From Rhodobacter xanthinilyticus (GTDB taxonomy: Bacteria; Pseudomonadota; Alphaproteobacteria; Rhodobacterales; Rhodobacteraceae), in NCBI RefSeq assembly GCF_001856665.1, contig NZ_CP017782.1, positions 124,001 to 188,000 on the forward strand: 64,000 nt of DNA, written 5' to 3'. This document shows positions 41,271 to 52,466 of the stretch, piece after piece. How positions within the stretch are numbered: the stretch's first letter is position 1; each line of letters starts with the position of its first letter. Made by a program: the position numbers and the translations under genes. A model generated the notes under the pieces. It did not search any database. It saw only the letters and a program-made list of their open reading frames with translations, and had not been told where the DNA came from.

Positions 41271-41603
41271 ATGAAACGGCGTGCATTGCCTGTTCTGCTG
41301 GAACGGGATTTTCGCAAAATGGCCGCCACCGATGGAGCGACGGTTGAGATCGAGTGTGTCAGTGCGCCAGACCCCGCGGAGCGGTTTTCCGGGGAATGGC
41401 TGTTTTATGTGGTCTCGCGCGAGGGCGATCGGTTCATGCTGGTCACCGCGACCGCGCGAGAGCGGATCATCAACTCGCCGATCGGTCTCTTCGGAATGGC
41501 CAGCGGCAAACTCAACCTCGATCATCTCGACGTGCCTTTTGTCGCTGGTGATGTCCGTGGCGGGATGCACAGCCGTCCGGGCGGAAGTGATCCGCTGGAA
41601 TGA
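41271..41603 (+). CDS. Hypothetical protein, first gene of the virB operon
   Basis: 110 residues, with AAGGGGAG 8 bases before the ATG. No signal peptide. Sequence: [20 protein letters not shown], then [38 protein letters not shown]. It looks like a small mixed alpha/beta protein, possibly regulatory. It overlaps the start of the transglycosylase gene, which suggests co-translation. No homologue recognised. Confidence 0.7.
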
Positions 41604-42213
41604 GGCAGGGCAGGGGGGCGAGGCGGACCTCGCCCCCGCGACTTTCGACGCGCCTTCCGCTGACTCTTCGGTTTTGCGCTACGACGCCAAGGGGTACCTG
41701 ATCCGCCCGACCGCAGCAAAGGCGGATCGGAGGGACGAGAACACGACCTCCCGGGCACCGGTGATGAGCACGAAAAGCGTTGCGGCGCCGCAGTCAGTGT
41801 TGCCCGCAATCCGGCTGGTGGCGGCGCGCTATCAAGATCATCCGGCGCTTCGGCGACTTCAGCTCACTCCCCGGCAGTGGTCGGCCTTCTTTCAGGCCAT
41901 GATCAAGATCGAGAGCAATTATTCCCAACGCGCCGTGAGCGGGGCAGGGGCCCAGGGTCTTGCGCAACTCATGCCCGACACCGCGCGGTATCTGCGTGTC
42001 GACCCTGCCGATCCGATGCAAAACCTCGATGGCGGCGCGCGCTACCTGCTTGAACAGATCGGCTCGTTCGAGAGCCTGACGCTTGCGCTTGCAGCCTATA
42101 ACGCCGGGCCGGAGGCCGTGCGCAAATATGGCGGCGTGCCGCCTTACACCGAGACCCGCAATCACATCGTCAAGGTGATGGCGGCTTACGACCGCATTCT
42201 TGCGGAGCTTTGA
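41551..42213 (+). CDS. virB1: VirB1-like lytic transglycosylase
   Basis: 220 residues if starting at ATG 41551; the exact start is uncertain, and an upstream start inside the overlap with the previous gene would add a hydrophobic signal segment ([11 protein letters not shown]). SLT domain at about residues 110-205: [32 protein letters not shown] (in parts, catalytic Glu121), [52 protein letters not shown] (in parts). It opens peptidoglycan for assembly of the secretion channel. It is one of two transglycosylase domains in the locus. Confidence 0.88.
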
Positions 42214-42227
42214 TTCAGGAAAATCCC

Positions 42228-42527
42228 ATGCACATGACCCCAGCGATCCGGCTGGCCCTCGCGGTCGGCCTCGTCACTCTCTCTCAAGTTGAACCGGCGC
42301 TCGCAAATATCGTCTTCACCAAGGCCGAGAACGTGGCCACCGGTGTGCTGGACTCGTTCCGCGGCACGCTGGCGACGGCCTTCTTCGGCATCGCCTTCGT
42401 GGTGACGGGCTTCCTTGCTGCGTTCAACCGGATCAGCTGGGCCTGGGTCTCGCTGGTGGTTGTCGGCGCGTTCCTCGTTTTCGCCGGGCCGGCGATCGTC
42501 GCAAACCTGCGTTCGTCGTTCAGCTGA
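42228..42527 (+). CDS. virB2: VirB2 pilin
   Basis: 99 residues from ATG 42228 with CAGGA upstream. Long signal peptide (RLALAVGLVTLSQVEPALA), then mature pilin with two hydrophobic helices (ATAFFGIAFVVTGFLAAF and WVSLVVVGAFLVFAGPAIVANL). Size and topology match VirB2/TrbC, the main subunit of the conjugative pilus. It is followed 12 bases later by virB3, the standard order. Confidence 0.92.
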   Translation: MHMTPAIRLALAVGLVTLSQVEPALANIVFTKAENVATGVLDSFRGTLATAFFGIAFVVTGFLAAFNRISWAWVSLVVVGAFLVFAGPAIVANLRSSFS

Positions 42528-42538
42528 GGATCGCGAAC

Positions 42539-42805
42539 ATGGAAAAGAGTGCGGTCATCCTTGGTCTTTCACGGCAGGCGAAGTTTCTTGGGCTGCCGAT
42601 GCCCTATGCCATGGCGGTGGGCGGGATGGCCGTGCTCCCGTTCATCCTTTTCAAGGTGATGACGTGGTTCCTGACGGTGCCGCTCTGGTACGGTCTCGCG
42701 CGCGCCGCGACGCGGATCAATCCGAACGGTCATCACGTGCTTTCGGTGATGATGCAGGTAACGCCGATGGCGCTCCTGCGGCGGGAGCGACGCCATGTTT
42801 CCTGA
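42539..42805 (+). CDS. virB3: VirB3
   Basis: 88 residues. Typical VirB3 plan: short N-terminus, two hydrophobic stretches (GLPMPYAMAVGGMAVLPFILF, written in overlapping parts, and MTWFLTVPLWYGL) and a basic C-terminus (ALLRRERRHVS). An inner-membrane protein needed for pilus assembly, often acting with VirB4, whose start it overlaps by 11 bases (42795-42805). Confidence 0.9.
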   Translation: MEKSAVILGLSRQAKFLGLPMPYAMAVGGMAVLPFILFKVMTWFLTVPLWYGLARAATRINPNGHHVLSVMMQVTPMALLRRERRHVS

Positions 42806-45143
42806 GCTTGCCGAAACGAAACGGACGCCGAGAGCGCGCGGGCTGCATACGCGCGACCCGAAGGTCTATGCGCATCTGCCCTATCTCATCGAGATCGACG
42901 ACGAAACCGTGCGCACCCGCGAGAACGCGCTGATGGTGTCGTTCGAGATCATCGGGATCGATGGCGTCACCTCCGGCCAGTCGACCATTCTCGCGCTGCG
43001 GGCGGGGCTCGCGCATCTCTTCGACACGCTCGATGAGCGGTTTTGTTTCTACCTGCATCGCCTCATGCGCCCGACGACGACGGGTGTCGCACCGATCCGC
43101 GGGTCCGGCTTCGCCGCGGATGTCGATCGCGTCTGGACCGACGAGCTGGCGCTGCGCAACCTGCAAGAAAGCGTGCTCGTTTTGACCGTGGTGCGCCGCC
43201 AAACGTCGGTGCTGCCGGTCCCGCTCTTTCGGCGCGCGGCCTCGAAAGTCTGGGGCGATGACACGGCGCGCAGGCTTGAGGAACTGCGTGAGGTTGCGGC
43301 GATCCTTGAGAGCGGGCTCGGGGTGCGCACGAAACGGCTCAGGACCAGCGATGGCAGCCTGCTCGGGTTTTATGCCTCGCTCCTGACGGGCGAGATGAAA
43401 CCCCTGCGCCGGGCGCCTTTCTGCCTTCTCGCCGAAGATGCGGCCGCAGCATCGCTGCACTTCGGGAAGGGGCAGTTTACCGTGGAGGAGGGAGGTCTGC
43501 GGCCGCGCGTCGGCGCACTCCTCTTTGTCAAATCCTACCCGACTTCCACCTGGCCCGGGATGCTCGATGCGCTCGGCGCGAGCCGGGATGTGATCATCTC
43601 CCACAGCTATTCGCCCATCGAACGCACCGGCATCGCAGAGCGGGTCAAGCGGCGTGTTGCGCAAATGCGTGCGGCCGAGGACATCGCGGCCACGATCGAG
43701 GCGCAGCTTTTCGAGGCGGCCGACAAGGCCGAAAGCGGCACGTTGGGCTTTGGTCTGCACCAGATGACCATCACCATTTTCGCCGATGACGTGGCCGCCC
43801 TCGAGACCGAAGTGGCGCGCGTTCGCGGCATTGCGCACCAGAACGGCATGCGGCTAGTGCGCGAGGTGACCGCGCTCGAGGCCGGTGTGTTCGCCATGCA
43901 TCCGGGCAACATGGACTACCGCGCCCGCGACATGACGGTTTCCTCGATCAATTTCGCCGATCTCGCGGCGCTACATGCGGCGGACACCGGAACTGGCGCG
44001 GAGGCTCTGCCCTGGCGCACCCCGATCACCGTGTTTCCCACCCTGCAGGGCAGTCTGCACCGGTTCAGCTTTCACGAACCGGGCGACCCGCAGGCAGAGC
44101 CCACCAATGGCCACACACTTGTTCTGGGCAAATCCGGGGGCGGCAAGACAACGACTGTCGCGTTTCTGGCGGCGCAGGCTCAGCGCGCCGGGGGCCGCAC
44201 GATCATCTTCGACAAGGAGGCCGGTCTTAAAATGGCCGTCCATGCCTTGGGCGGGCGCTATGCGGAGATCCGGGCGGGTCGGCCGACGGGCCTCAACCCT
44301 TTGGCGACCGAGGCAGGCGAGCGCGGCGAGGCCTGGTTGCTCGATTGGCTGGTGAGCCTGCTGGAATCTCGAAGCGGTGCCATGACGCCGCTGCAGTCGG
44401 AGGCGATCAAATCGGCCATCGCGCAAAACGGGAAAGCGCGTGCGGGGCTTCGCAACTTCCGCGCCTTTCAGGAGCTGTTCGGCGATGTGGGCGATGGGCT
44501 CGATCTGGCGCAGCGGCTTGCCGAATGGGGGCCGGGGGGACGTTACGGCTGGGTCTTTGGCGAAGCGAATGAGCCGGTCGTGGATTTCGAAAGCCATGAC
44601 GTGACCGCGGTCGATCTGACCGAGATCCTCGACCTTGGCACCGAGCGCAGCGCAATTCTGGGCTATCTTTTCCGGCGCATCGAGATGCTGATCGAAGAAA
44701 AGCGCCCGACGCTGATCTTGATCGACGAGGCCTGGAAGGTGCTCGACGACGATTACTTCTCGCGCAAGCTCGCCGAATGGCTCGTCACCGCGCGCAAGAA
44801 GAATGTCGTCGTGGTGATGATGACGCAGTTTCCGAGCCAGATCCGCGGCTCGAAAGCGCGCTCGATCCTTGAGGCCTTGCCGAACCAGCTTCTCTTTCCG
44901 AACGGCGAAGCCGAGGCGTCCGACTATGACGGCTTCCGCCTCACGGATGGCGAGCTGGATTTCGTACTGACCCCGATCCCGGGCCAACGGCTCGTGCTCT
45001 CGCGCAATCCGCGCGGATCAACGGTGCTCGATGTCGATCTGAAGGCGCTGGGGTCGCTGTTGACGGCTTTGGGCGGCGGCCAGGCCGGGATCAACGCTTT
45101 CGGCGCGGATTACGCCACGCGCCCGCAGTTCTGGAAAGAGTGA
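42795..45143 (+). CDS. virB4: VirB4 ATPase
   Basis: 782 residues, normal VirB4 size. The N-terminal CagE/TrbE-type half includes PYLIEIDDETVRTRENALMVSFEI. The ATPase half has Walker A GKSGGGKTTT from Gly445, then IIFDKEAGLKMAVHALGGRY, Walker B LILIDEAWKVLDDDYF near residues 638-652, and VVVMMTQFPSQI. It powers pilus biogenesis and substrate transfer at the inner membrane. Intact and well conserved; translationally coupled to virB3. Confidence 0.96.
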   Translation: MFPELAETKRTPRARGLHTRDPKVYAHLPYLIEIDDETVRTRENALMVSFEIIGIDGVTSGQSTILALRAGLAHLFDTLDERFCFYLHRLMRPTTTGVAPIRGSGFAADVDRVWTDELALRNLQESVLVLTVVRRQTSVLPVPLFRRAASKVWGDDTARRLEELREVAAILESGLGVRTKRLRTSDGSLLGFYASLLTGEMKPLRRAPFCLLAEDAAAASLHFGKGQFTVEEGGLRPRVGALLFVKSYPTSTWPGMLDALGASRDVIISHSYSPIERTGIAERVKRRVAQMRAAEDIAATIEAQLFEAADKAESGTLGFGLHQMTITIFADDVAALETEVARVRGIAHQNGMRLVREVTALEAGVFAMHPGNMDYRARDMTVSSINFADLAALHAADTGTGAEALPWRTPITVFPTLQGSLHRFSFHEPGDPQAEPTNGHTLVLGKSGGGKTTTVAFLAAQAQRAGGRTIIFDKEAGLKMAVHALGGRYAEIRAGRPTGLNPLATEAGERGEAWLLDWLVSLLESRSGAMTPLQSEAIKSAIAQNGKARAGLRNFRAFQELFGDVGDGLDLAQRLAEWGPGGRYGWVFGEANEPVVDFESHDVTAVDLTEILDLGTERSAILGYLFRRIEMLIEEKRPTLILIDEAWKVLDDDYFSRKLAEWLVTARKKNVVVVMMTQFPSQIRGSKARSILEALPNQLLFPNGEAEASDYDGFRLTDGELDFVLTPIPGQRLVLSRNPRGSTVLDVDLKALGSLLTALGGGQAGINAFGADYATRPQFWKE

Positions 45144-45150
45144 GGATCGG

Positions 45151-45333
45151 ATGCGATCAGAATTTTACATAAGATTGATTACAGGACTCGCGGTACTGAT
45201 GCTCGCGGCCTGCGCCGAGGTGCCCGTCGCCCGCACGAATTGTTGGGCAAGTGCGAGCCCGAGTGCAAGCGTTTCATCGAAAGGATCGAGCCCGGTTCTG
45301 GGCCGCGCCAGCCATGCCCCTTTCTGCCGCTGA
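45151..45333 (+). CDS. Small lipoprotein (VirB7-like position or entry-exclusion type)
   Basis: 60 residues with a lipoprotein signal ending LMLAAC (Cys21), followed by a short polar, Ser-rich mature region ending HAPFCR with two further cysteines. It lies 8 bases after virB4 and overlaps the next gene by 20 bases. No virB7 is present in its usual place between virB6 and virB8, so this may take that role. Small lipoproteins after virB4/virB5 also act in entry exclusion. The choice cannot be made from sequence. Confidence 0.6.
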   Translation: MRSEFYIRLITGLAVLMLAACAEVPVARTNCWASASPSASVSSKGSSPVLGRASHAPFCR

Positions 45334-46456
45334 TCTGAACTCCTCCCTCTCGGGCTTTGCCCTTGCGGCGATCGTGCTGGCTGGCACGGCCGCCGCGAAT
45401 GGTGTGCCGACGGTCGATGGAAAAGCCGCGATCCAGCATGGCCTAGAGGTCTCGCAGATGACGGCGCTGAGCGAGGCGCGTCAGCTGGAGACGGCGAAGA
45501 AAAGCAAGATCGATGACTTGCACAAGGAACAGCTCGCAGCACTCGATCAGACGCTTGCCCTGCTCTCGGGCTCTCCGATGCCTGTCGCGGGTCTCGAGTC
45601 ACTGCCCGGGGCCGAGGCAACCACTGTCTATTCGGTGGATGACAGCAACCCCTATGCGGCTCGGCTCTTTGGCGATGCGAAATCGAGCATCGAGGAGATG
45701 ATCGTGGAGACGGCGCGCAAATATGCGGGCCATCCCGGGCTTTCGAAGGCGGGTCTGAACCCGACCGAGTTCCGGATCTGGTTTCAGTCCTTGGTCAAGC
45801 AGGAGTCCGGGTTCTCGATCGGTGCGCGCAGCCCGGTTGGAGCATTCGGGCTTACTCAGGTCATGCCCGACACCGCGAAGGGGCTCGGCATCTACCCGGG
45901 TTACTATGATGACCCGCGGCTGCAACTCGATGGCGGGGCGCGGTACTTTCTCGCCCAGCTCAACCGCTTCGGCTCGGTGCCGATGGCGCTTGCGGCCTAT
46001 AACGCGGGTCCCGGCAATGTCCTCAAATACGGAGGGGTGCCGCCCTTCAAGGAAACGCAGAATTACGTGCTGCGCATCACCAGCTTCTTCAACGGCTATG
46101 CGGCGAAGATCGGCGGGATCGATCAGATCGGGACGCTCGATCCGCGCGACATGGCGATCGCGGAAAGCAGCAACGTTGCCGATGCCGGGATGCATTACGG
46201 CATGGAAGCGACGAGCGACATCGCCGCCTCGCTCACCCGTCTGCGCGCGATCATCGAGCAGATTCCGAAAACGAAGAGCGCGGAAGAGGCGATGGGCCTC
46301 AACACCTATGCCCGGGTCGAGGCGATGCGCATTGCCGTCATGGTGGCCCGGGTGAAAGCCGCGCGCGTTCGCGTGGATCAGGCGCGCTATGCGCTCTTCC
46401 TGCAGGCCTATGCCGAAGACGCCACATTCATCAAGGTCAAGGGAGGGATCGAATGA
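45314..46456 (+). CDS. VirB5-like protein with an internal lytic transglycosylase domain
   Basis: 380 residues from ATG 45314 (MPLSAADLNS), with a signal peptide ending TAAANG. Residues 31-90 look like a VirB5/TrbJ N-terminus (GVPTVDGKAAIQHGLEVSQM ... long helix), matching GVPTIDLSAIAKVGEVLTEA of the next gene. Residues about 150-260 are an SLT domain (SLVKQESGFSIGARSPVGAFGLTQVMPDTA in parts, catalytic Glu164; YNAGPGNVLKYGGVPPFKETQNYVLRI in parts). Residues about 310-380 again resemble VirB5 (IPKTKSAEEAMGLNT ... EDATFIKV versus IPDTKGLKEAVDLNT ... EEQKFIKV). This suggests a pilus-tip protein carrying a wall-cutting enzyme. Its stop overlaps the virB5 start. Confidence 0.85.
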   Translation: MPLSAADLNSSLSGFALAAIVLAGTAAANGVPTVDGKAAIQHGLEVSQMTALSEARQLETAKKSKIDDLHKEQLAALDQTLALLSGSPMPVAGLESLPGAEATTVYSVDDSNPYAARLFGDAKSSIEEMIVETARKYAGHPGLSKAGLNPTEFRIWFQSLVKQESGFSIGARSPVGAFGLTQVMPDTAKGLGIYPGYYDDPRLQLDGGARYFLAQLNRFGSVPMALAAYNAGPGNVLKYGGVPPFKETQNYVLRITSFFNGYAAKIGGIDQIGTLDPRDMAIAESSNVADAGMHYGMEATSDIAASLTRLRAIIEQIPKTKSAEEAMGLNTYARVEAMRIAVMVARVKAARVRVDQARYALFLQAYAEDATFIKVKGGIE

Positions 46457-47253
46457 AAGCCCGGTATTTGCGTTTCCTGATCAATGCGTGCGCGGTGTCC
46501 GGTCTGTCCTTCGTCCCGCTCGCGGTTTCGGCGCAAGGCGTGCCGACGATCGACCTTTCTGCGATTGCCAAGGTTGGCGAGGTGCTGACCGAGGCAAAAT
46601 TGCAGGTCAAGGAATTGATCGCCTCGAACCTGAAGCTGGATGATCAGATCCTCAAGCAGGCTCAACAGATCCTGCTCCTCAAGGATCAGATCGAGGCACT
46701 GCGTCACGGGCTTACCCTTCAGGCGCTTGGCATCCCGGATCCGAACACCTTCTTCGACGATATCCTGCCCGATGTGAACGATCTGACCGGCGGGCTGCAG
46801 TCGGCCAAGAGCGGCAGCTATTCCTTGATCACCACCTCGGGCAAGGTGGGCGACAAGCCTGCGGCGGAATATGTGTCGGAGTTTTTCACCTCCGTCGGGC
46901 TCGACGTGAAAACCGTCGACACCCTCTCGACCAGCGAGAACCCGAGCGCCGCGCGGATCGGCTCGCAGGCGAATACCGCAGCGTTCCTTTCTGCGGCGGC
47001 GGAATCCTCCTCGGTGAAAGCCTCGGAAAGTCTGGGCAGGGTGAATGAACTCGTCCAAGCAATCCCGGACACGAAAGGCCTCAAGGAGGCGGTCGATCTC
47101 AACACGCGGGTGACGGCTGAGCTTTCGATCGCGCTCGCCAATATCTGGAACATGGAGTCGGCCCAGCTGATGGGCATGGGCGAGGCCGGGGTGATGGATG
47201 CCGCCACCGCCGCCGAAGAGCAGAAATTCATCAAGGTTTTGGGGGAGAAATGA
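46453..47253 (+). CDS. virB5: VirB5 minor pilin
   Basis: 266 residues. Signal peptide (CAVSGLSFVPLAVSAQG). The mature N-terminus is a long helix (KLQVKELIASNLKLDDQILKQAQQILLLKDQIEAL, in parts), typical of VirB5/TrbJ/TraC pilus-tip proteins. The C-terminal helical segment (DTKGLKEAVDLNTRVTAELSIALANIWNMES) packs back in known structures. It shares N- and C-terminal blocks with the preceding gene, so the two arose by duplication. The ATG overlaps the previous stop by ATGA. Confidence 0.9.
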   Translation: MKARYLRFLINACAVSGLSFVPLAVSAQGVPTIDLSAIAKVGEVLTEAKLQVKELIASNLKLDDQILKQAQQILLLKDQIEALRHGLTLQALGIPDPNTFFDDILPDVNDLTGGLQSAKSGSYSLITTSGKVGDKPAAEYVSEFFTSVGLDVKTVDTLSTSENPSAARIGSQANTAAFLSAAAESSSVKASESLGRVNELVQAIPDTKGLKEAVDLNTRVTAELSIALANIWNMESAQLMGMGEAGVMDAATAAEEQKFIKVLGEK

Positions 47254-47747
47254 GCATGTGGGGCGCTGGCATGAAGGGTGGTGTGGCAAAAGGTGCGACG
47301 GCAGCGGCGCTGATATGGGCGATCATCGGTGTGGCCGCGGCGGAAACGCCGGTCGGACTTGGGATGGAGGGGGAAGAGGCTTTCCTCGATGTCCTGCCCA
47401 AGGTCGCCGTGCCCGCAGATGTGCAACCGATCCCGGGTGCGATGAACGAGCCTTGGCGCAGCTGTCAGTCAGTGTGGCCGCAAGAATATTTGCGAACGCA
47501 AGAAGGGCCGGAGGCACGCGCCTATCGCGATATTTATGGATTTGTCCGCGCTCAGGCGGTCATTGAGCACCAAGACTGCGGCTGCAGAACGAAAGTTGCA
47601 AGCTGGGCGCAGGTCGAAGATATCGCTGTCCGCTTGCGAAATTCGACCAACACCTCAGTTCTTACTTGGGCGCAGACCAAGGACGTTTCGGATGAGGCAG
47701 ACAAGCTGACCGTCGTGGCCGAAGTCATGTGTGCCGGACCGTTCTGA
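47250..47747 (+). CDS. Exported protein of the virB locus, unknown
   Basis: 165 residues. N-terminal signal or anchor (AAALIWAIIGVAAAETP). The mature part has cysteines in PWRSCQSVW, HQDCGCRTKVASW and VMCAGPF, so disulfides are likely in the periplasm, and a helical centre (ARAYRDIYGFVRAQAVIEHQD). No family recognised. It sits between virB5 and virB6 with overlapping ends on both sides (ATGA with virB5; a one-base stop/start overlap with virB6), so it is co-translated and probably a structural or accessory part of this T4SS. Confidence 0.75.
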   Translation: MSMWGAGMKGGVAKGATAAALIWAIIGVAAAETPVGLGMEGEEAFLDVLPKVAVPADVQPIPGAMNEPWRSCQSVWPQEYLRTQEGPEARAYRDIYGFVRAQAVIEHQDCGCRTKVASWAQVEDIAVRLRNSTNTSVLTWAQTKDVSDEADKLTVVAEVMCAGPF

Positions 47748-48745
47748 TGGACAGCGTCTCAAGCATCCTGTCGACGCTTGATGGGGCAATCAGTGCCGCA
47801 GGGAAGCAGTATTTCGAGCTGACCGCTGTGGCCCTAGCCCCTGTCTTCACTGCCCTTTTGACGCTGCTTCTGGTTCTCATCGGCATCAACATGGCGCTCA
47901 ATGTCTATCGGATTGCGATGCGCGACGCGATGCAACTCGCCTTTCGCATCGTGCTGGTGATGATGTTCGGGCTTTCGTGGCTGAACTTCAGCCAGATCTA
48001 TGATGCGGCAAGCAATGGGCTTGGCGATCTTGCTCTCGCCTTTTTCAAGGAGGGTGGGACCGGTGTCGGGGCCTCTGCCACTGCCGCGATGGACGACATG
48101 GCCAACATGATGGCGGGCAATGTCGACAGCGTTTCTTCGGCGATGTCCTCGATCATGCGCGGGTTTGTCGCCGCCTTCCTCTACCTCGTTCTCGGCCTGC
48201 TGATGGCGGTCTACGTATTCATTGTCGGCTTTGCGAAGTTGATGATCGCTTTCCTTTTGGGCGTGGCGCCTCTCTCGATTGCCGCTACGATATTCGAGAA
48301 GACCAAGGGAATGTTTGAAGCTTGGCTCTCAGCGATGATCGGCTATCTGATGTATCCCGTTGCTTCGGCCGGGATCATCGTCGCCGTTGTCACCGTGGCG
48401 CACAGTGTCTTTACGAAGGCGACCGATGTCACCGACCTCGGCTCGATCCTCGGTTTCTTCGTGATCGTCTTTGTCGGGATCTTCGCCTTGCTCGCCATCC
48501 CGATGGCGGTTTCGCACATCACCGGGCAGATCAATCTCGCCTCGATCGCGCCACAAGCCCTGCGCGTTGCGGGTAAACCGCTCGAGAAAACCTCGGATTA
48601 TGCCGCGCGCCGGATGGGACAGTTCCAATCGGGTTTCCTGACCGGAAAGACGGAACATCATCACTTGCGAGATCAGGCCCGGTCGGATGCCGAACGCGGC
48701 CACGCGGTTCGGCTCAGGCTCAGCCAGTTCATCCGCGGCGGCTGA
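47747..48745 (+). CDS. virB6: VirB6 channel protein
   Basis: 332 residues from ATG 47747. Polytopic: hydrophobic segments at about residues 30-55 (ALAPVFTALLTLLLVLIGINMAL), 65-85, 145-170 (AAFLYLVLGLLMAVYVFIVGFAKLM, in parts), 175-200, 215-235 and 245-265. This is the TrbL/VirB6 pattern of inner-membrane T4SS channel components. The conserved periplasmic loop lies at about residues 85-140 (Gly/Ala/Met-rich). Start overlaps the previous stop. Confidence 0.92.
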   Translation: MDSVSSILSTLDGAISAAGKQYFELTAVALAPVFTALLTLLLVLIGINMALNVYRIAMRDAMQLAFRIVLVMMFGLSWLNFSQIYDAASNGLGDLALAFFKEGGTGVGASATAAMDDMANMMAGNVDSVSSAMSSIMRGFVAAFLYLVLGLLMAVYVFIVGFAKLMIAFLLGVAPLSIAATIFEKTKGMFEAWLSAMIGYLMYPVASAGIIVAVVTVAHSVFTKATDVTDLGSILGFFVIVFVGIFALLAIPMAVSHITGQINLASIAPQALRVAGKPLEKTSDYAARRMGQFQSGFLTGKTEHHHLRDQARSDAERGHAVRLRLSQFIRGG

Positions 48746-48792: not shown

Positions 48793-49473
48793 ATGACAGG
48801 TTCACCACCTGAATTGAGAAGTTTTCTCGAAGGCGAGATGTTCTTCGGCGTGCGCAAGCGCGAGCGCATCGCCTATGGCATCGCGGGCGGTGGCTTGGCC
48901 ATCGGCCTCATGGGCATGATCGCGGTCACGGTGCTTTTGCCGCTCAAGGAGACCGAGGCCTATCTAGCCATCGTCGACAAGGACACCGGCGTGGCGGAGC
49001 GCGTCGTCTCGGTCGAGAAGGCCGGGATGGAGCAGGCCGAAGCGATCCGGCAGAGCCTGCTCTACGCCTATGTGACGGACCGCGAGACCTACGATCAGCA
49101 CGACAACGAAACCCGGATCCTGCGCGCCTACACCTGGAGCGAGGGCGACGCGAGAACATCGCTCAAGAGCCTCTGGACCGAAGGGCACCCGAATTACCCG
49201 CCCAAGATTTATGGGGAAAATTCACGGGTCATGGTGCGGATCCTCTCGATCACGCCGGTCACCGAAACCACCTCGCAGGTTCGGTTCACAAAGACCTGGG
49301 TGAGCGACGGCGAAGGCGTGCCCGATCGCGAGGGCAAATTCACCGCCACCGTCACCTTCCGCTTCGAGCCGAGCAAGGAAAGCGCGCTCGATCTCGTCTG
49401 GCAAAACCCGACCGGGTTTCTCGTGACCGATTACCGCCTGACCGCGGAATCCCTGCAGCCTCAGGAGGGCTGA
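48793..49473 (+). CDS. virB8: VirB8
   Basis: 226 residues. Cytoplasmic N-terminus, one transmembrane segment (IAGGGLAIGLMGMIAVTVLL) at about residues 30-50, then a periplasmic NTF2-like domain: AYLAIVDKDTGVAERVVSVE, YVTDRETYDQHDNETRI, FTKTWVSDGEGVPDREGKFTATVTFRFEP (in parts). VirB8 is an inner-membrane assembly factor. It is 47 bases after virB6; the gap has no virB7 gene. Confidence 0.93.
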   Translation: MTGSPPELRSFLEGEMFFGVRKRERIAYGIAGGGLAIGLMGMIAVTVLLPLKETEAYLAIVDKDTGVAERVVSVEKAGMEQAEAIRQSLLYAYVTDRETYDQHDNETRILRAYTWSEGDARTSLKSLWTEGHPNYPPKIYGENSRVMVRILSITPVTETTSQVRFTKTWVSDGEGVPDREGKFTATVTFRFEPSKESALDLVWQNPTGFLVTDYRLTAESLQPQEG

Positions 49474-49475
49474 AG

Positions 49476-50189
49476 ATGAAGTTTGCGCCGTTTGCACTTG
49501 CCGCCATCCTCGCCGGGGTGACCGCCCTGCCCGTCCTTGCCGAAACCGCCCCGCGCGCCGGCAGCCGCGATCACCGCGTGACCTATGCGACCTATCAGGA
49601 GGGGCAGGTTTACACCGTCACCACCCGGTTGCGCACGGTGACGCTGGTCGAACTGGCCGATGGCGAGCGGATCCAGTCGATTGCCATCGGCGATCTCGAA
49701 AGCTTCAAGATCGACAAGCTCGAACGGCCGAACCTTTTCATCATCAAGCCCGTCATCGCCGGGGCCTCGACGAACCTCACGATCGAGACGCAACGCAACA
49801 TCTACTTCCTGCGCGTGACCGAAAGCTCGCGCGGAACGGCCCAATACTCGGTGAAGTTCACCGTGCCGGGAACAGGGGCGGGAGCGCGGAGCACAGCCGA
49901 AATCCCGGCGGAGCCGCCCATGCGATATCGGGTGATGAAACATGCGGGACGCCTGCCCGGTTTTGCACCGATCGCGGTTTCCGATGATGGCCGGAAGACC
50001 TCCTTCAAGATCCCCGCCGGCGCGCCCATGCCGACGGTCTTCCGCGCCGATGAGCGCGGTCAGGAATATGCGGTCAATTCGGCTGTCTCGGGCACGGTGA
50101 TCACCGTCAGCACCCGCTCCGAACGTTGGGTCCTGCGTTATGGCGCGGATTATGTCTGCGTCGCGGCCGAAACGGGGGCGCAGCGATGA
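49476..50189 (+). CDS. virB9: VirB9
   Basis: 237 residues. Signal peptide (PFALAAILAGVTALPVLAET). The N-terminal VirB9/CagX domain starts DHRVTYATYQEGQVYTVTTRLRTVTLVELADGE (in parts), with LFIIKPVIAGASTNLTIETQRNIYFLRV (in parts). The C-terminal beta domain, MRYRVMKHAGRLPGFAPIAVSDDGRKTSFKI (in parts), contacts VirB7 and VirB10 in the outer core complex. Starts 2 bases after virB8 and overlaps the VirB10 start by 4. Confidence 0.94.
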   Translation: MKFAPFALAAILAGVTALPVLAETAPRAGSRDHRVTYATYQEGQVYTVTTRLRTVTLVELADGERIQSIAIGDLESFKIDKLERPNLFIIKPVIAGASTNLTIETQRNIYFLRVTESSRGTAQYSVKFTVPGTGAGARSTAEIPAEPPMRYRVMKHAGRLPGFAPIAVSDDGRKTSFKIPAGAPMPTVFRADERGQEYAVNSAVSGTVITVSTRSERWVLRYGADYVCVAAETGAQR

Positions 50190-51480
50190 CCGATCTTCCC
50201 GAGAGTGAAAAGCTCGCCGAGCGCCTTGCGAGGATGCAGCCGCAAGACCCAAAGCCGAAGCGGCGCGGGTGAACCCCTATGCGCTTTCGGCCGTCACCGC
50301 CGTGACAGGGCTCGGCGCCGGGGTTTGGTTGGCTCTTTCCGCGCCAGAAGCTCCCGCACCCGCTCCGCCGATCGCAACCGCATCGGTGAGCGATTTTCAA
50401 CAGGACGGGATCGGAACCGATGGTTTCACCATTGCGCGCCCAAAGCCCGATCTGACGATCAAGCCCGACCGCAGCGCGGAGGAGCGCCTCAAATTGGAAA
50501 TCGTGGATCTACAAGCGCAGATCGCCGCATTGAAGGCCAATCCGGTCACGGTTCCCGACGAAGCGAAGCTGCAGGAGCTCAGCGCCAAGATTGCGAAGCT
50601 CGAAGACGATGCTCGTAGCGAAGCCGCAGCGCGGGCGGAACTCGAACGAGACAACATTCGGCTTCAGACCGAGCTTGACACCGCAAAGCTGGTACAGGGC
50701 GACAGCGAGGCCGAGGCGGTGCGGGCGCGCGAGGAAGAGTTGGCGCGGCGTCGGCAAGAAGCGAAGGCCCTCAGCGCTGCGCAGATCAATTCCGACATGG
50801 TTGCATTGCGAAACGAGTCCTCTGGCGGCAGCGGCAGTGGTGCCGGCACTTCCGGTGCAACAGGGGCGGATGCTTTCCGGCGCGCGGGCGCCAAGGCTTC
50901 AGCCGCCACCCAATCTGAGGTGATCGCCAATCCCGCGCATACGATCGTTCAGGGCACGGTGATCGAGGCGGCACTTGAAACGGCGATCAACACCGATCTT
51001 GCGGGCAATGTTTCTGCTGTCGTCAGTCGCGATGTCTGGTCCTTCGACATGACGCGGGTTCTGGTACCGCGTGGCTCGAAGCTCTTTGGCCGGTACGACT
51101 CCGATGTCTCGCCGGGGCAGAGACGTGTGCTGATTGCCTGGGACCGGTTGATCACCACCGATGGCCAGACCGTCGTTCTGGCAGCCTTTGGCACAGATCG
51201 GGTTGGCCGCTCGGGCCTTTCCGGCCGAGTGCGTACCCATTTTCTTGAACGGTTCGGTTCAGCCGCGCTGATATCGGTCATTGGCGCGGTCCCTGCTCTG
51301 GCAGCCGCGAAATACGCCTCGAACGAGGTTGCCGCGGACACGGCCAAGGATGTCGGCACCGATCTAGGCAATGCTGTCGGCGACGCGATGACCGACTATC
51401 TCAACATCCCCTCGACGATCAGCGTCGATCAAGGCGCGGTGGTGATGGTGCGTGTCGATACCGATCTCGAGTTTTTCTGA
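50186..51480 (+). CDS. virB10: VirB10, apparent one-base frameshift near the N-terminus
   Basis: The natural start is ATG 50186 (MTDLPESEKLAERLARMQPQ), overlapping virB9 by ATGA. This frame stops at TGA 50270-50272 after 28 residues. A GTG at 50269 in another frame opens the rest: membrane segment YALSAVTAVTGLGAGVWLAL, a Pro-rich and coiled-coil region (residues about 70-170), then the TrbI/VirB10 beta-barrel domain (ANPAHTIVQGTVIEAALETAINTDLAGNVSAVVSRDVWS in parts; LVPRGSKLFGRYDSDV; VAADTAKDVGTDLG). One extra G in CGCGGGTGA would fuse both parts into about 431 residues. VirB10 spans both membranes as the energy sensor. Confidence 0.92.
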
Positions 51481-52466
51481 TGAGCTATCTTGATACCTAT
51501 CTGGGGCAGCTCGATGCGGCGCTCTCCGACCCGGGCGTGATGGAAATCGCGATCAACGCCGATGGCGAGATCTGGGTTGAGCGCTCGGGCTCGACACATA
51601 TGATGAGGGCGGGTCTCCCGCCCCTGCCCGCGCGCGAAGTTCGCGATCTCGCGGCGCAGATCGCGAACTCGACCTCGAATACGTTCACCGAATCCCTGCC
51701 GCTCGTTTCCGCTGCGGTGCGCTATCGCAATTTGATGCTGCGCTGCCAGATTGTCGGCAGCCCTGCGGTCTCCGGGGGCACCGTGATCGGCATCCGGGTG
51801 TTTCGGGCGCGTGACGCCGAGGGCAAGCGCGCGCCGCGCTGGTTTGAATTCCTGCGCGCGCAGGTCAAATCGCTCGAAGAGGAACGGCGCGAGATGGTTG
51901 CAAGCATTCGGAAAGATGCGCGCGCCACGGATGTGGACGCGTTCTTGCAACGGCTCGTCACCGAGCGGCTCAACATCATCGTCTCGGGCGGCACGTCCAC
52001 GGGCAAGACCGAACTCGGTCGCCGTCTGCTGTCACTCGTCCCCGAAAACGAGCGCATCGTGACCATCGAGGACTCGCTCGAGCTGTTGCCCGCCCAACCG
52101 AATGCGGTCAGCCTGATTGCGCAGCGTGATGACAGCTCGGCGCGCTCGGCCGACAAGCTCTTGCAGGCCACGCTGCGGTTGCGACCCGATCGGATCATCC
52201 TTGGCGAGTTGCGCGGATCGGAAGCTGCGACGTTCCTCGATGCGATCAACACCGGCCATTCGGGCTCGTTCACGACGCTGCACGCGCATTCCGCCCGCAA
52301 GGCGATGGACCGGCTCGCGCTTCTGGTAATGGCGCAGGGCACGCGGCTCGGGTTTGCCGAGGTGATCCGCTACCTGCAAAGCTCGATAGACGTGATCTTG
52401 CAGATGGGCCGTGACGGCGAGCGGCGCGGCATCATGGAGATGTACTTCCCAGGGCTCGACGACTGA
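51480..52466 (+). CDS. virB11: VirB11 ATPase
   Basis: 328 residues. Walker A GGTSTGKT at residues 170-177, Walker B region DRIILGELRGSEA, and the His box GHSGSFTTLHAHSARKAMDRL. It is the hexameric traffic ATPase at the base of the T4SS channel. The ATG shares a base with the virB10 stop (TGATG at 51478-51482), so it is coupled. Full length. Confidence 0.96.
   Translation: MSYLDTYLGQLDAALSDPGVMEIAINADGEIWVERSGSTHMMRAGLPPLPAREVRDLAAQIANSTSNTFTESLPLVSAAVRYRNLMLRCQIVGSPAVSGGTVIGIRVFRARDAEGKRAPRWFEFLRAQVKSLEEERREMVASIRKDARATDVDAFLQRLVTERLNIIVSGGTSTGKTELGRRLLSLVPENERIVTIEDSLELLPAQPNAVSLIAQRDDSSARSADKLLQATLRLRPDRIILGELRGSEAATFLDAINTGHSGSFTTLHAHSARKAMDRLALLVMAQGTRLGFAEVIRYLQSSIDVILQMGRDGERRGIMEMYFPGLDD

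Follow-up and report, generated by a model that had tools for sequence, protein, structure and literature searches.

A VirB5-related protein with a lytic transglycosylase domain in place of its middle, paired with ordinary VirB5 in type IV secretion operons of Rhodobacteraceae

The virB operon of the Rhodobacter xanthinilyticus DNA presented above raises the question of why a protein with a wall-cutting type of domain should begin and end like VirB5, and why it should be encoded beside an ordinary VirB5 in an operon that also has a VirB1. In passages of a recent review of type IV secretion systems (T4SS), the task of breaching the wall during assembly is given to VirB1, and the opening of the donor wall for the stalk and pilus, the stopping of the cutting and the crossing of the recipient envelope are counted among the steps that are not fully understood (PMC12624023). 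In the R388 system, as given in excerpts of the structural work, a VirB5 pentamer sits on one of VirB6, and in the model the growing pilus pushes the VirB5 ring outward (PMC9259494). The window discussed here is the whole stretch of 64,000 nucleotides, and all positions are counted from its first letter.

Named by position, the genes of the cluster follow the order virB1, virB2, virB3, virB4, a lipoprotein-like ORF, the hybrid, virB5, a gene for a Cys-containing protein, virB6 and virB8 to virB11, all on the plus strand, and the same gene order is present on an annotated plasmid of Gemmobacter aquarius. The separate VirB1 reported in the preliminary description is indeed there, as an SLT protein at 41281..42213 (longest frame, start codon assignment approximate; PF01464, E 2.2e-19) that is 44% identical to the hybrid, over the SLT part only. 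VirB2 (42210-42527), VirB3 (42539-42805) and VirB4 (42795-45143) are ORFs named after the genes in the corresponding places of annotated relatives, where the order is the same. A 60-residue lipoprotein-like ORF (45151..45333), with a LAAC lipobox recognised by eye, comes after virB4 and overlaps the start of the hybrid; it has homologues in near-relative loci, has no Pfam or NCBIfam match over the curated cut-offs, and is a candidate for VirB7 or for an entry-exclusion protein. The hybrid itself occupies 45314..46456, stop included, and encodes 380 residues. Its stop codon and the start codon of the ordinary VirB5 (46453..47253, 266 residues; PF07996, E 2.2e-10) share the four bases ATGA at 46453..46456, an overlap that may couple the translation of the two genes. 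This VirB5 scores 21.6 bits against the NCBIfam VirB5 model, far under the cut-off of 132 bits. A 165-residue, Cys-containing, exported-looking protein follows (47250..47747), with no match in Pfam or NCBIfam and with homologues only in near relatives among the loci searched; VirB6 (47729-48745), VirB8 (48793-49473), VirB9 (49476-50189), VirB10 (50269-51480) and a VirB11-like protein (51480-52466), assigned by position against the annotated Gemmobacter operon, complete the cluster.

The same 264-kb contig carries a second cluster of VirB1-type, hybrid and VirB5 genes, which belongs to a different clade (L206; G000:C2:43529-49050, minus strand) and lies about 125 kb from the first. Another SLT ORF, of 319 residues, is found on a different contig of the genome (G000:C1:114504-114902, E 1.4e-35 to the SLT part of the hybrid) and is possibly another VirB1.

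The hybrid opens with a signal-peptide-like segment (45314..45400), read from the sequence with an unsure start codon: from the ATG at 45314 there is no basic residue before the hydrophobic segment, and the alternative start, a GTG at 45251, would add several. The VirB5-like N-terminal part comes next, with the GVPTVD motif and a helix (residues 30-83, 45401..45562), then the SLT domain with its conserved lead-in (residues 122-266, 45677..46111) and, at the end, the VirB5-like C-terminal part (residues 267-380, 46112..46453), modelled as a long helical hairpin and finishing with the tail FIKV. The Pfam core of the SLT domain covers residues 159-251 (PF01464, E 5.9e-17) and includes Glu164 in the catalytic motif. 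ORF, Pfam and hhalign results agree on the arrangement first put forward in the preliminary description, an SLT domain between VirB5-like blocks in one 380-residue product; the normal VirB5 that it placed in tandem is the PF07996 protein directly downstream, and the mature start GVPT(V/I)D and the end IPxTK..EA..LNT...FIKV that it attributed to both neighbours are seen in the translations. Its further idea, that an SLT domain had been inserted into one virB5 copy, is right as to place but not as to kind: the domain does stand between VirB5 ends, but it replaces the VirB5 middle and is not added to a whole VirB5, since VirB5 profile columns ~60-140 are unmatched in the hybrids listed and the SLT domain occupies that place. 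A virB5 duplication as the origin of the pair is plausible.

How firmly the two ends can be assigned to VirB5 was evaluated at several levels. A BLASTP comparison of the hybrid with the VirB5 of the window aligned a C-terminal block at 26% identity (E 2e-6) and an N-terminal block at E 0.006. When profiles of 35 hybrids and 33 VirB5s were compared by hhalign, the C part (267-380) matched with probability 97.4 and E 1e-11 over 104 ungapped columns, ending at the VirB5 C-terminus, the N part (30-121) matched the N-terminus of VirB5, with 50 columns aligned at probability 95.5, and the SLT part, as an internal control, gave 0.35. (L006, whose hybrid gene is broken into two frames in its contig, was excluded from the alignments, as were the VirB5 frames of L006 and L087 from the VirB5 profile.) It could be argued that such likeness is a generic helical or coiled-coil similarity, or a convergence on a common motif, given that both ends are helical in the model, that neither has a fold match there (the models are weak) and that the C part also matches, weakly, the unrelated helical family HrpB7 (E 0.0035). 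Against this argument stands a control in which heptad blocks were shuffled with helical periodicity retained, 100 times per part: the C part scored 73.8 against a shuffled maximum of 38.5 (best shuffled probability 80.3, 0/100 as good), clearly above the shuffles and also above its own reversal, at 15.1. For the N part the shuffles come close (score 53.3 against a maximum of 47.3, best probability 93.8 against 95.5 observed, 0/100 as good), and the reversed sequence scored 13.2. On these comparisons the VirB5 homology of the C-terminal part appears clear, and that of the N-terminal part is weaker and modest, leaning as it does on the GVPT.D motif, which the shuffles retained as a block. Similarity at both ends, in the correct order, is thus what hhalign and the shuffles returned, in line with the initial proposal; the contrary outcome, similarity at neither end, did not arise.

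Searches with other models lead in the same direction. The hybrid of the window has no VirB5 match of its own in Pfam or NCBIfam, and the Pfam VirB5 model finds 9/18 aligned hybrids at E≤0.1 (best 1.5e-8); the eight whole-genome PF07996 matches that fall under the Pfam cut-off all lie within hybrid ORFs, at the expected ends. A profile built from VirB5s, which contains no hybrid but does contain VirB5s from many of the same operons, matched 27/27 hybrids at E≤0.01, finding the C end in 26 of them and the N end in 12; 26/27 pass E≤1e-4 as well. It matched 0/27 of the other SLT-bearing ORFs of the same 33 loci at E≤0.01 (26 VirB1-type and one fragment); ORFs in the profile searches run from stop to stop. 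Conversely, among all ORFs of 154 loci of SLT relatives, the C-part and N-part profiles each matched one at E≤0.01, and this is the plain VirB5 of L009 (E 1.4e-11 and 1.1e-6, respectively, in the correct places), a locus with the order virB1-virB2-virB3-virB4-virB5 and no hybrid.

On a larger scale, the C-part profile at E≤0.001 found 11 places in 5 of 385 genomes of the class, namely 5 hybrids, 5 adjacent VirB5s and 1 plain VirB5. In 398 genomes of the phylum, some of them common to the class search, it found 23 places in 12 genomes, including 10 hybrids and as many adjacent VirB5s (both assigned from the length and position of the frames) and a plain VirB5 in G794 (L233; E 1.1e-7 to the VirB5 profile). 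The two remaining matches, in ORFs of ~675 residues, are marginal (E 7e-4 and 9e-4) and are the sole exceptions to hybrids and VirB5s in 34 places over these two overlapping draws. With matches so confined, with order and ends in agreement, and with half of the aligned hybrids recognised by the Pfam model, we find it very hard to credit that the ends are VirB5-like by generic similarity.

The hybrid is an old family and not a local event. In 394 genomes of the family, with up to four candidates scored per genome, it occurs in at least 120 places in at least 89 genomes; the 120 were chosen from the matches listed, 117 at E≤1e-62 (4 of these match only the SLT and C parts) and 3 weaker and partial. 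VirB5 over the Pfam cut-off was found in 130 places in 95 of the 394 genomes, a count that leaves out 8 PF07996 rows under the cut-off. Among the matches listed, 119/120 hybrids have VirB5 directly downstream and the remaining one ends at a contig end; seen from the other side, at least 119 of the 130 VirB5s have a hybrid directly upstream. The six best-scoring of the 11 VirB5s without a listed hybrid belong to a type that the Pfam model fits better, and two of the 11, one of them among these six, begin at a contig start; because four candidates were scored per genome, some of the 11 may have hybrids that were missed. One hybrid (G497) lies outside the family by taxonomic coding. Two divergent VirB5s of the same family (L224:5905-6666 and L225:3911-4723), which form long branches in the C-part tree, have no hybrid in the stretch covered.

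Plasmids are among the carriers. The hybrid C part matches 151 of 72,556 plasmid records at E≤0.001, and 58 of the 60 matches listed are labelled lytic transglycosylase or SLT, the other two being unlabelled; the genera of these 60 are ones that we take to be Rhodobacterales. Hybrids are encoded on plasmid pP72_e of Phaeobacter inhibens P72 (57,427 bp) and on pDSHI03 of Dinoroseobacter shibae (126,304 bp, strain DSM 112351). Parts of a 2024 study describe conjugation assays in which the donor plasmids were one of 57 kb, native to P72, and one of 126 kb from D. shibae DFL-12 (PMC11481893); they are presumably these same plasmids because strain or species and size match.

In a tree of SLT domains, the 27 hybrids form one group (support 98/93), near the VirB1-type domains; the 26 VirB1-type rows fall outside it, and the hybrid is therefore not orthologous to the VirB1 of the same operons. 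The group holds one other sequence, an SLT fragment on a Tateyamaria contig (L008:5848-6420), nested among the hybrids and without VirB5-like ends, which is apparently a decayed hybrid. The C-part tree separates the 27 hybrids from 31 VirB5s as two groups (100/98), and the branching within one largely repeats that within the other; the two trees would together fit one old origin followed by long co-divergence. The virB5 duplication may or may not have taken place within this lineage, the C-part tree being unrooted and carrying a long-branch warning from the tool.

As for the enzyme itself, Glu164, GLTQ and AYNAGPG, to which we assign the catalytic roles known for such motifs, are invariant in 35/35 hybrids, and for this reason an active enzyme is to be expected. 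A separate VirB1-type ORF is present in 24/27 hybrid loci, a count that includes both L193 and L205, whose hybrids and VirB1s are identical; of the three loci without one, L211 and L195 have little upstream sequence and L209 has none within 5.8 kb. SLT proteins of ~1900 residues occur on viral contigs (L168:2846-8596, L184:2349-8099 and L187:2861-8596); the full hybrid profile matches them beyond the SLT region, and they gave no match to the C-part profile.

The last residues of the hybrid tend to resemble those of its neighbouring VirB5 more closely than those of VirB5s from other operons. In the last 23 columns, identity between hybrid and VirB5 is 35.8% within the same operon and 20.9% between operons, with 0/5000 permutations as high, for 9 representatives under 70% identity drawn from 33 pairs, whose operons share ancestry and are not independent. 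In the rest of the C part, the values are 22.8% and 20.5%, a small excess (p 0.0074); this remainder of the alignment serves as the one control for a stretch (the last ~20 residues) that was chosen after the sequences had been seen. The best tail match is the VirB5 of the same operon for 5/9 hybrids, a tie for one and the VirB5 of another operon for three; FIKV goes with FIKV, for example, and ERQFMDF with ERRYMDF. Such operon-matched tails suggest a docking site or partner common to the hybrid and VirB5.

Structure prediction was less informative, the AlphaFold2 models of the two proteins, made from 5 sequences each, being weak (mean pLDDT 62.5 and 64.4). In the weak model of the hybrid both ends are helical and the C part is a long helical hairpin, and Foldseek and VIA-align, run on these models, matched the ends to no confident VirB5 structure, with CagL rows at background level only. 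The SLT domain shows an MltF-like fold in the structure matches, among which is the EscI-EtgA fusion 8urn.

We propose that the hybrid is a VirB5 paralogue with an SLT middle that acts as a wall-cutting enzyme in the periplasm, where it is docked on the stalk of VirB6 and VirB5, a reading that we hold to be, on balance, probable. A VirB1-like SLT domain would have taken the place of the middle of a VirB5 paralogue, in what looks like a single, ancient event, and the product would since have been kept as the partner of ordinary VirB5 in the T4SSs of Rhodobacteraceae. Because of its signal-like start, it is expected to be exported to the periplasm, where the VirB5 N-terminal helix and C-terminal hairpin, retained according to the profiles and most strongly at the C end, would serve as its scaffold. 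By this hairpin and the tail it would dock on the site used by VirB5, which is probably on the VirB6 platform or on the VirB5 pentamer, as the operon-matched tails suggest; the SLT domain, whose catalytic motif is intact, would then cut the peptidoglycan through which the stalk and the growing pilus pass. Room for the core complex would still be made in the wall by VirB1, and the hybrid would add a second and focused cut that is bound to the stalk.

The same evidence can be arranged in other ways. If the hybrid joined the VirB5 tip, in a mixed pentamer or as a cap, it would be pushed out with the pilus and would cut the recipient peptidoglycan as a phage tail-tip lysozyme does. The retention of both VirB5 ends and the tendency of the tails to match the VirB5 of the same operon agree with this, as does the R388 model, in the excerpts cited, where pilus growth drives the VirB5 pentamer outward through the core (PMC9259494), and a section of the 2025 review calls recipient membrane penetration poorly understood (PMC12624023); however, the arches and the O-layer channel would have to let through something as bulky as an SLT domain, and the VirB5 middle that was replaced may be needed for the pentamer, so that we consider a place at the tip unlikely, if still worth keeping in view. 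We also doubt that the hybrid is simply a second VirB1-like transglycosylase, anchored by its VirB5-like arms during assembly and absent from the final machine. Its SLT motifs are intact, its domain lies near the VirB1-type domains in the tree, and VirB1 is described, in the passages cited, as acting at assembly (PMC12624023), but with a separate VirB1 in 24/27 hybrid loci (two of them identical), a simply redundant enzyme would leave unexplained why the hybrid is so closely paired with VirB5, as it is in 119/120 among the matches listed.

A signal-peptide-like start, VirB5-like ends and a site fixed beside VirB5 in 119/120 of the hybrids among the matches listed speak against a further reading, in which the T4SS would secrete the protein as an effector against bacteria or a host and the SLT domain would do the damage. 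Wall-degrading T4SS effectors do exist in bacteria-killing systems, which is the point in favour of this idea; here it seems very improbable.

If the hybrid is placed on the stalk, as we prefer, then cutting of the wall would be a function of the central stalk of the machine itself in many Rhodobacter- and Roseobacter-type bacteria. A scaffold of VirB5 type that brings along a wall-cutting type of domain, kept beside VirB5 across the T4SSs of the family, bears on both the opening of the donor wall and the crossing into the recipient; were the tip-borne arrangement true, the T4SS pilus of Rhodobacteraceae would be armed like a phage tail, opening the peptidoglycan of the recipient. The database label "lytic transglycosylase" or "transglycosylase SLT domain-containing protein" hides a VirB5-related T4SS component. 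The VirB5 and SLT parts are known separately. In the literature searched, which consisted of titles, the opening parts of abstracts, and passages of T4SS reviews and roseobacter papers, no description of a VirB5-SLT hybrid as a T4SS component was found, and the word transglycosylase is absent from the main text of the roseobacter papers searched; as a T4SS component the hybrid is new to that literature.

With respect to known systems, the hybrid has the same N- and C-terminal parts, in the same order, as VirB5 and its counterparts TraC of pKM101, TrwJ of R388 and CagL (PF07996), and likewise an exported-looking start and the same virB operon neighbourhood; it differs from them in its middle (profile columns ~60-140), which is an SLT domain, and in having an ordinary VirB5 in the operon besides. 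With VirB1 (SLT, PF01464) it has in common an SLT domain with intact motifs, the operon and, in the window, 44% identity in the domain, whereas the VirB5-like arms on both sides, its separation from the VirB1 groups in the SLT tree and the presence of VirB1 itself set it apart. In the type III secretion protein EtgA with EscI, and in phage tail-tip lysozymes, a wall-cutting enzyme is tied to the inner rod or the tip of a machine; these belong to other machines, we know of no homology between them and VirB5, and the likeness is one of analogy only. PrgK, TraG of pIP501 and Orf14 of Tn916, VirB1-like enzymes of Gram-positive bacteria, are described as having wall-hydrolase domains within a T4SS component (PMC12857230), as the hybrid does; they are membrane-anchored enzymes, in contrast to a hybrid made on a VirB5 scaffold.
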